Below are positions 61,669 through 62,541 of a stretch of DNA of 64,000 nt, one piece after another. The stretch is taken from NCBI GenBank assembly GCA_944384835.1, contig CALWUU010000015.1, forward strand, positions 21,909 through 85,908. The letters are read 5' to 3'. How positions within the stretch are numbered: the stretch's first letter is position 1; every line of letters starts with the position of its first letter. The stretch comes from an uncultured Clostridia bacterium (lineage in GTDB: Bacteria; Bacillota; Clostridia; Oscillospirales; Acutalibacteraceae). The notes below the pieces were generated by a model. It had not been told where the DNA came from, did no database searches, and saw nothing but the letters and a program-made list of their open reading frames with translations. The position numbers were made by a program, and so were the translations under genes.

Positions 61669-62541
61669 TTATTTTTTGATAGATTTTCTTATCATAACAA
61701 AGAAACATAACATAGCAGAAGCACTACACAGAATCATGATGATTGTAATATTATCGCCTTCACCTGTTTTGGGGCTTTCCAATTTAGTACTTTCCAAAAC
61801 AATGCTTTGTTCTTCACTTTTAGTTGCCTCAACGGAAAGAGCCTTGAGTGTTTGCGTATCAATGGCTCCGCATTCAATACAGGTAAAGGTTTTGATTCCT
61901 TCAGAGTCAACAGATGGTTCTGTGGTAATGCGGCCTTCATCCCATGAATGATTTTCCGTTATGGTTTCTCCGCATTCACAGATTTTTATATGTGTTTGAG
62001 CATCATTGCTTTGCCATTCTCCAAAGGTATGAGGAATGACCTCGGTCATATTGTCTGTATAACTGTAACCACAGACATTACAGGTATGTTTTGTATATCC
62101 TTGTTCCAAGTGTGTTGGAGAAACGATGGATTCAGTCATAACATGAGAAGCGGAATCACCTACCTCGGTACAGTTTTCGTCCAAACAGATATGAAAATGA
62201 TAAGTTTCGTCATAGGACCACTCATCTGAAAAGTGATGTGTTATGTTCAATACGAGATGGAGTGTACTGTCTTTTTGAATGCTGTAATCTTGAAGTGTAT
62301 TTCCGTCTTCCAATTGTTTTCCTGCAAATATCAATGTTTGCTGGTCAGGAGGGATGCCTTCTTTCTCTTGAATTTTTGCTTTTACATCTTCAATTCTGTC
62401 CGTTGGTTCTACCTCCAATGTAATATGTTTGCCTGTCAAAGTTTTTACAAAAATTTGCATTGCCATTGTCGGTACAGTAAAGATAACCATACATATCATC
62501 ACAACAAAGATAGAAATTATACGTTTGGTTTTCATTTTCAT
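61669..62541 (-). CDS. Secreted, wall-anchored protein with an N-terminal ubiquitin domain
   Basis: 290 residues. Signal peptide 1-27 (basic start, hydrophobic core, ending VPTMA); mature Met28 then equals ubiquitin Met1. Residues 28-98 match human ubiquitin at 61 of 71 positions by my alignment. Lys6, 11, 27, 29, 33, 48 and 63 and the Leu8/Ile44/His68/Val70 patch are kept. Arg42, Arg72 and the terminal LRGG are replaced (Thr, Asn, ITHH). Next come Cys/His repeats (about 100-230: CLDENC, CNVCG, CECG, CIECG), then a sorting signal with SPKTG (about 256-260), a hydrophobic helix and a basic tail. AAGGAG lies 13 nt from the chosen ATG. It follows ispE by 19 bp on the same strand. Function unknown. 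Confidence 0.9.
   Translation of the reverse strand: MKMKTKRIISIFVVMICMVIFTVPTMAMQIFVKTLTGKHITLEVEPTDRIEDVKAKIQEKEGIPPDQQTLIFAGKQLEDGNTLQDYSIQKDSTLHLVLNITHHFSDEWSYDETYHFHICLDENCTEVGDSASHVMTESIVSPTHLEQGYTKHTCNVCGYSYTDNMTEVIPHTFGEWQSNDAQTHIKICECGETITENHSWDEGRITTEPSVDSEGIKTFTCIECGAIDTQTLKALSVEATKSEEQSIVLESTKLESPKTGEGDNITIIMILCSASAMLCFFVMIRKSIKK

Follow-up and report, generated by a model that had tools for sequence, protein, structure and literature searches.

Ubiquitin is regarded as a hallmark of eukaryotes. The 64,000-nucleotide stretch of DNA analysed here and called the window (contig CALWUU010000015.1 of assembly GCA_944384835.1, positions 21,909 to 85,908, forward strand) comes from an uncultured Clostridia bacterium of the family Acutalibacteraceae, likely one of an animal gut, and carries a minus-strand gene for a predicted exported, wall-anchored ubiquitin protein. 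According to its open reading frame (ORF), the gene runs from a likely ATG at 62541 to a stop codon at 61669-61671, about 1.5 kb from the window end. Its features are as follows, read from the sequence unless another basis is given.

61669..62541, minus strand: whole gene, 290 amino acids, predicted exported, wall-anchored ubiquitin protein (basis: ORF and PF00240)
62555..62560, minus strand: AAGGAG resembling a ribosome-binding site, 13 nucleotides before the ATG and directly after the ispE stop codon at 62561-62563
62461..62541, minus strand: predicted signal peptide, residues 1-27, whose T-M-A end abuts ubiquitin Met1
62248..62460, minus strand: ubiquitin domain, ubiquitin residues 1-71, trichomonad type, with T in place of R42 (basis: PF00240, identities and PDB match)
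61837..62247, minus strand: stalk with CxxC and H..W repeats, residues 99-235
61762..61776, minus strand: SPKTG sortase motif, residues 256-260
61672..61749, minus strand: hydrophobic segment and positive tail RKSIKK, completing the sorting signal

That the domain is ubiquitin is virtually certain. It matches PF00240 with 98.7 bits (E 1.6e-28, curated cut-off 25.4), the only such match in its own genome, and 14 control genomes gave none. A preliminary description of this DNA had aligned protein residues 28-98 with human ubiquitin at 61 of 71 positions without a gap; a scripted count returned the same figure (86%) in one intact gene, with the domain at the same coordinates. The ten differences from human are T12H, S20T, T22R, N25D, D32E, R42T, R54N, S57Q, N60S and E64D. 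The sequence of the fold and the L8-I44-H68-V70 face are kept, and our alignment agrees with the earlier remark that this surface and all seven lysines are unaltered.

An assembly artefact is unlikely, because the gene sits between ispE and a DUF378 gene, joins the domain in one frame with a signal peptide and a sorting signal, and has full-length relatives in databases: P0036 (96% identity), P0093 (88%), P0122 (81%) and P0123 (78%), the first two standing for clusters of 63 and 11 sequences, none of them the window's own. With its flanks conserved and these relatives independent, contamination was likewise judged unlikely, and the possibility raised at the outset that the domain would group with contaminating host sequence does not apply to a domain built into an intact bacterial surface-protein gene.

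Origin of the domain

Searches with the whole protein were dominated by polyubiquitins; the useful sets of relatives came from a search with the tail and from a search with the domain only. Among the 120 listed of 7991 matches to the domain, the highest identity (97%) belongs to the trichomonad-type polyubiquitins P0143 and P0145. These two and P0146 are environmental proteins of 96-97% identity, and we regard them as eukaryotic because they are head-to-tail polyubiquitins with RLRGG-MQIF joints. The window domain is identical to P0143 at 69 of 71 positions, D32E and R42T being the sole differences, and it has all eight residues that separate the P0143 type from human ubiquitin (H12, T20, R22, D25, N54, Q57, S60 and D64).

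Comparison with the PDB points the same way. Among the 60 matches listed, the top single-ubiquitin chain is 5xy3 chain m (132 amino acids, 'Ubiquitin, putative') at 139.5 bits, with the next such chain at 122.5 bits and human ubiquitin at about 122. The 5XY3 entry is the Trichomonas vaginalis ribosome (PMC8215155). When the P0143 ubiquitin was joined to random 56-residue pads, 20 pads gave 139.3-139.7 bits; on one pad, which scored 139.4 rather than 139.5, one of 1349 single variants had an equal score and 11 lay within 0.3 bits. This reproduction of the score, rather than the letters of the chain, is strong but indirect evidence that the chain m ubiquitin has the P0143 sequence or nearly so.

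A tree of 71 rows and 71 columns, built on a short alignment with human and Entamoeba rows typed in and with an unsettled bootstrap (correlation 0.946), places the window in a clade of eight bacterial and three trichomonad-type rows (support 99/94). The 71 rows were retained from 84 after a first tree without a starred branch, and those dropped were 12 bacterial rows, mostly long-branched, and one sponge. The donor was very probably a parabasalid protist, to judge from these likenesses. The preliminary description had pointed to an animal-type source on account of P19, E24 and A28, which are no pointer to animals because P0143 has them too. With 69 of 71 residues shared with the trichomonad type against 61 of 71 with human, the marker residues and the tree led us to reject an animal source.

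The transfer is probably not recent, since the codon make-up resembles that of the neighbours: the G+C content at third codon positions is 0.30 in the ubiquitin part versus 0.32 in the tail, ispE and ackA. Synonymous sites are near saturation against trichomonad-type relatives in other genomes. The preliminary interpretation thus stands as to a genuine ubiquitin of eukaryotic origin, a transfer that was not very recent and features of export; its animal-type donor is not supported.

A predicted wall-anchored surface protein

Export and anchoring were predicted by reading the sequence rather than with a signal-peptide program. The junction, T-M-A followed directly by MQIFVK, fits cleavage of the signal peptide exactly before Met1. 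At the other end of the domain, the RLRGG end is absent, and the stalk opens with N-I-T-H-H where ubiquitin would go on to R-L-R-G-G. Similar CxxC and H..W repeats occur without ubiquitin in P0130 and P0140-P0142. The sorting signal consists of SPKTG, the hydrophobic ITIIMILCSASAMLCFFVMI and the positive RKSIKK, and it fits the class B (S/P)PXTG pattern; four aligned full-length relatives have SPKTG (three) or NPKTG (one), while a fifth, P0126, ends early and has no sorting signal. The window's own genome (92% complete) has a single PF04203 match, the sole sortase found, which is of class B (TIGR03064, 191.8 bits, cut-off 153.75). Purified SrtB of Clostridioides difficile cuts SPKTG peptides and not LPETG or NPQTN (PMC4155245). 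Export and wall anchoring of the window protein are predictions in which we have good confidence.

Eight environmental relatives (P0128, P0129, P0131, P0132, P0134, P0135, P0137 and P0139) have the full signal peptide and ubiquitin and have lost the sorting signal; they leave the stalk frame at eight places and share one alternative-frame end. P0125, which is without the ubiquitin part, arrives at this end further along, and P0126 stands for a cluster of 52. The frame shifts could reflect a natural loss of anchoring or errors in the sequences.

Loss of the conjugation tail and conservation of the fold

R42 is replaced by T and R72 by N, two residues that we take to be contact points of the activating enzyme. 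With these replaced and the C-terminal GG missing, the domain could not be attached to targets in the manner of ubiquitin, and the missing GG rules out a conjugating ubiquitin. None of the 61 bacterial domains compared has a GG end. A search for E2 (PF00179) gave no match in the window's own genome, although the 14 control genomes were silent too; E1 was not searched for.

Conservation was calculated over these 61 domains, a set without 13 of 69 locus domains, which were duplicates, broken or divergent, and without six loci that had given no BLAST hit. T55, L56, D58 and Y59 are invariant in all 61, and K27, K29, K33 and K63 are conserved in 97% or more. Mean conservation is 0.94 for the F4 patch, 0.92 for the core and 0.91 for the lysines, and falls to 0.35 for R42 and the C-terminal tail residues 72 and 74-76.

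Nucleotide comparisons indicate purifying selection. Among 15 Entamoeba-type domains (105 pairs), the mean proportion of nonsynonymous differences (pN) is 0.082 and that of synonymous differences (pS) is 0.77, with synonymous sites near saturation in many pairs. The window domain gives pN 0.101 and pS 0.978 against the trichomonad-type relative L004, and pN 0.10-0.14 and pS 0.82-0.98 across L004, L029 and L023. The protein has been preserved while silent sites turned over.

Genomic setting

Genes near the ubiquitin gene are ispE, a 4Fe-4S protein gene, a DUF378 gene and ackA. The flanking features are as follows.

62561..63478, minus strand: ispE, upstream neighbour in the same direction, ending 19 nucleotides before the ATG (TIGR00154, 248.3 bits)
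61221..61520, minus strand: DUF378 protein, downstream neighbour (PF04070, 82.1 bits)
61624..61645, no strand assigned: terminator-like hairpin behind the gene, with a T run after it on either strand (listed on the plus strand; the minus-strand T run is readable in the sequence)

All five congeners keep the DUF378/ispE order, with a gap of about 80-180 bp in four and roughly 0.8 kb in the fifth (L076), and PF00240 has no match in these five genomes (80-99% complete). The ubiquitin gene, with no counterpart in them, is therefore either a single-gene gain in the window lineage or a loss in the sampled relatives.

Anti-phage ubiquitin-conjugation operons have a ubiquitin-like gene beside genes for E1, E2 and a deubiquitinase. 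A defence operon of this kind is ruled out by the lack of a GG end and by the neighbouring genes. Phage cargo was rejected, with no match among 50,697 phage records, as was plasmid cargo, with matches in two of 72,556 plasmid records and neither close to the window gene. On viral contigs, one of five pattern-matched stretches encodes a relative: on a 4-kb contig (L093:2011-2748), which is likely from a virus of a eukaryote, three ubiquitin-like repeats lie head to tail with TDGTGSGTKQ linkers, and the listed ORF has no signal peptide.

Relatives in other bacteria

Counting the window's own genome each time and including some weak matches, PF00240 is matched in one of the six genus genomes, in 15 of the 300 family genomes, in 5 of 394 from the order and in 5 of 398 from the phylum. 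A signal peptide is placed directly on ubiquitin in nine of the 15 family genomes, again with the window's own. An unbiased set comes from hidden Markov model (HMM) searches of the family and order, which gave 20 proteins over the cut-off besides that of the window. Thirteen of these have a signal peptide directly on ubiquitin; the other seven comprise three with a double-glycine leader (all from one genome), two with an internal ubiquitin, and two (L013 and L014) with a divergent domain in the C-terminal half.

The two internal cases, L006 and L008 of genus g74, are large repeat proteins with the ubiquitin-like domain in mid-protein between repeats that read as Listeria/Bacteroides-type; L006 has a signal peptide, and for L008 the contig does not include the start. 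In four small tandem genes (L083:8497-10003, genome G093), an export leader of the double-glycine type (ALSEEELELVIGG) is followed by ubiquitin-like domains; one scores 55 bits to PF00240, and the most divergent, at 14 bits, falls short of the cut-off. By our reading of the gene names, leuS lies on one side of them and a yqeK-like/rplQ/rpoA region on the other, and their ubiquitins are perhaps exported like a bacteriocin.

A named scan added 47 loci from Clostridia of goat, sheep, deer and buffalo guts, from Bacteroidales, and from Dyella, Rhodoferax, Methylotenera, Rhodocyclus, Vibrio, Algibacter, Pontibacter, Microcystis and others. Here 46 of 48 proteins have A before ubiquitin residue 1, a share biased by the inclusion of MAMQIFVK among the search patterns. 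The C-terminal ends, by reading, are beta-barrel-like ending in -F, OmpA-like or type IX secretion system-like in some Gram-negatives, and short or unrecognised elsewhere. Contig JAGXGM010000037.1 of a Hydrogenophilales metagenome-assembled genome encodes two signal-peptide-ubiquitin proteins (L027 and L046) with beta-barrel-like ends.

Ruminococcus albus 7 (DSM 20455) carries a ubiquitin gene on its complete plasmid pRUMAL01, annotated as 'ubiquitin family protein' (WP_013483628.1). Two genes flanking it (L094:4450-6260) share its C-terminal module and are without ubiquitin; the arrangement looks like a graft of ubiquitin on to a secreted protein that was already there. The C-terminal module of L004 appears, by eye, similar to the pRUMAL01 one.

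Probable repeated acquisition

Marker residues were counted over 75 rows, duplicates included; both the marker sets and the groups used for the approximately unbiased (AU) test were chosen after looking at the sequences. All eight trichomonad markers are present in the window protein, P0036, P0093, P0126 and L029, seven in P0123 and L004, six in P0122 and five in L023. A second, Entamoeba-type set is complete in 16 loci and present at seven of eight positions in three; goat, sheep, roe deer or water deer is named as host for 14 of these 19 loci and none is named for five. Bacteroidales sequences are Entamoeba-type at six of eight markers. The assignment is made because PDB 4gsw outscores human ubiquitin for L030 (147.9 versus 139.4 bits) and because its score was reproduced, two of 1425 single variants giving an equal score; 4gsw is E. 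histolytica ubiquitin (PMC8588831). At L028:7054-7940, two adjacent signal-peptide-ubiquitin genes encode different ubiquitins, with six and two of the eight Entamoeba markers.

The AU test rejects a single clade of all bacterial rows (p 9e-5) and a single clade of the trichomonad- and Entamoeba-type bacterial rows (p 0.0015). From these sequences, exported ubiquitin has likely been captured more than once. A possible, rather doubtful extension is a convergent class across phyla, in which bacteria would repeatedly capture the ubiquitin of surrounding protists and display exported mimics aimed at them: the trichomonad type in Acutalibacteraceae, the Entamoeba type in Clostridia of ruminant guts, and a general-eukaryote type in freshwater and soil bacteria. 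The same rebuild would have taken place each time, with a signal peptide placed on Met1, the conjugation tail lost and often a surface module of the bacterium's own.

Proposed role

We propose that the ubiquitin gene was captured from a parabasalid protist and that its product is exported and trimmed so as to start at ubiquitin Met1. A class B sortase would then anchor the protein to the cell wall, exposing ubiquitin at the tip of the CxxC stalk, where it could act as a non-covalent mimic that binds ubiquitin-binding proteins of gut protists. The consequence for the protist may be attachment or altered uptake or handling. Taken whole, a ubiquitin mimic that is anchored at the surface, acts non-covalently and is directed at protists is a tentative explanation that we favour at somewhat less than even confidence. 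The partner is its least certain step, and protists as the target are more tentative still; they were chosen because phagotrophic gut protists, which encounter these bacteria, are the likely donors and because parabasalids house members of what is probably the same family.

Those members are parabasalid endosymbionts in the GTDB family Acutalibacteraceae, described with 42 eukaryotic-like genes, of which at least 12 are nearest to parabasalid genes and at least 20 encode signal peptides; the study's one mention of ubiquitin concerns ubiquitinyl hydrolase domains in the endosymbiont clade (PMC10579323). Parabasalid-derived genes in these bacteria show a route for such genes into the family. An ATP/ADP translocase (PF03219) was found in three of eight family genomes tested: G005, G033 and G099, of 1.0, 1.3 and 1.8 Mb. 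Two of these, G033 and G099, encode divergent ubiquitin-like domains within other proteins (L013, L014 and L018, the last under the cut-off), which are possible effectors of protist endosymbionts.

Several observations weigh against the proposed role. The translocase search gave no match in the window genome, nor in the 1.1-Mb genome G093, so the window bacterium does not look like a member of the endosymbiont clade. Structure prediction for the whole protein, from an alignment of six rows, was poor (mean predicted local distance difference test score 49.4), with a helix at residues 261-289 in the low-confidence model. Anchoring is not general: sortase-type signals, NPQTG, NPETG and TPKTG among them, were read in 8 of the 48 named-scan proteins (a loose regular expression flags 11, of which L045, L047 and L061 were not counted, nor was L004), and no sorting signal was seen in the trichomonad-type L004 or in the cluster representative P0126. 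The Dyella relative L034 is a free ubiquitin ending at residue 73, with no C-terminal part. The I44 face (mean conservation 0.81) and V70 (0.74) lie below the core, the F4 patch and the lysines over the 61 domains, which disfavours one universal partner of the I44 type. To judge by their names, relatives occur in some bacteria of soil, fresh water or the sea, so that the role is not tied to gut protists alone. Finally, BfUbb of Bacteroides fragilis, the one ubiquitin exported by bacteria for which we found a tested role, acts on other bacteria (PMC5705921).

Core conservation above that of the I44 face would suit a stable cap, that is, a protease-resistant N-terminal module of surface proteins with no partner. 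Ubiquitin is a highly stable protein, and in the relatives it mostly stands first in the mature protein, ahead of C-terminal parts of many unrelated kinds. We nevertheless consider such a cap quite improbable: the invariant T55, L56, D58 and Y59 and the kept K27, K29, K33 and K63 exceed the apparent needs of the fold, the domain is internal in L006 and L008, and a module with no binding role would hardly account for its having been captured again and again from different eukaryotes.

Another conceivable partner is a receptor of animal cells or mucus, which would make the protein an adhesin or host-directed ligand. Extracellular ubiquitin is reported to be active on animal cells, for example through CXCR4, although a review notes that the CXCR4 interaction has been challenged (PMC10892293). 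The window protein retains F4, V70 and the patch, and several relatives are large, repeat-rich proteins of surface type. The freshwater and soil bacteria among the relatives, and a domain of protist rather than animal type, make this improbable.

The strongest rival is antagonism of the kind attributed to BfUbb, in which the protein would bind and inhibit an extracytoplasmic protein essential to bacterial competitors, here on contact since it is wall-anchored. It has experimental precedent, and BfUbb has in common with the window protein the junction at Met1 and the missing GG (PMC5705921); sensitivity to BfUbb hinges on a residue within a peptidyl-prolyl isomerase (Jiang et al. 2024, as cited in PMC12396204). 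Patchy presence (one of six genomes in the genus) suits a competition gene, and L034 exemplifies the free, short ubiquitins among the relatives. We consider it unlikely all the same. BfUbb is a mature protein of 76 amino acids with a C-terminal cysteine, whereas the window protein has a stalk and a sorting signal, a difference in architecture that the preliminary description had rightly noted. The products of ispE, ackA, the DUF378 gene and the 4Fe-4S gene are unlike immunity proteins, and in some relatives the domain is part of a very large surface protein (the longest frame has 2525 residues), which would be unusual for a diffusible toxin.

Whatever its target, the gene is traceable to a particular type of protist and sits on a bacterial wall-anchor architecture, within a scattered set of exported ubiquitins. 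Confirmation of a displayed mimic would provide a clear evolutionary case of a eukaryotic intracellular tag reused as a bacterial surface ligand, and would make recognition between gut bacteria and protists testable, with R. albus 7 as a named strain.

Comparison with known systems

No paper on exported ubiquitin in Clostridia was found in the open-access literature searched. What is new is the link to a trichomonad source, the predicted anchoring by sortase and the likely recurrence of capture; single cases are already in databases, as the R. albus label illustrates. The R. albus 7 protein likewise has a signal peptide, ending in A-N-A, ubiquitin from Met1 and no GG; it differs in its general-eukaryote type (LDVEPSDTIENV), in another C-terminal module and in that no sorting signal was seen.

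The SrtB substrates of Clostridioides difficile share with the window protein an SPKTG-type signal, a hydrophobic segment and a positive tail, and class B is the sole sortase found in the window's own genome; the substrates described are hydrolases, adhesins, a collagen-binding protein and a nucleotidase, and none is described there as ubiquitin (PMC4155245). The endosymbiotic Acutalibacteraceae are of the same family and have parabasalid-derived genes, many with signal peptides; they differ in their small obligate-intracellular genomes with an ATP/ADP translocase, of which the window genome shows none (PMC10579323).

BfUbb is similar in being horizontally acquired, cut before Met1 (a cut that is predicted for the window protein), without a terminal glycine and patchy in occurrence. 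At 76 residues with its C-terminal cysteine, it is 63% identical to human ubiquitin, and its DNA is reportedly nearest to an entomopoxvirus gene (PMC3352274, PMC5705921). The published description of BfUbb sets it apart from the 290-residue, trichomonad-type protein of a Clostridia bacterium with a CxxC stalk and a sortase signal. Eukaryotic ubiquitin of the parabasalid type, represented in the PDB by T. vaginalis 5xy3 chain m, is a close counterpart of the domain itself, with 69 of 71 residues, all eight markers and the best single-ubiquitin PDB score among the 60 listed, whereas the window protein is without RLRGG, has R42T, is encoded by one genomic copy, and bears an export signal and fused bacterial modules.
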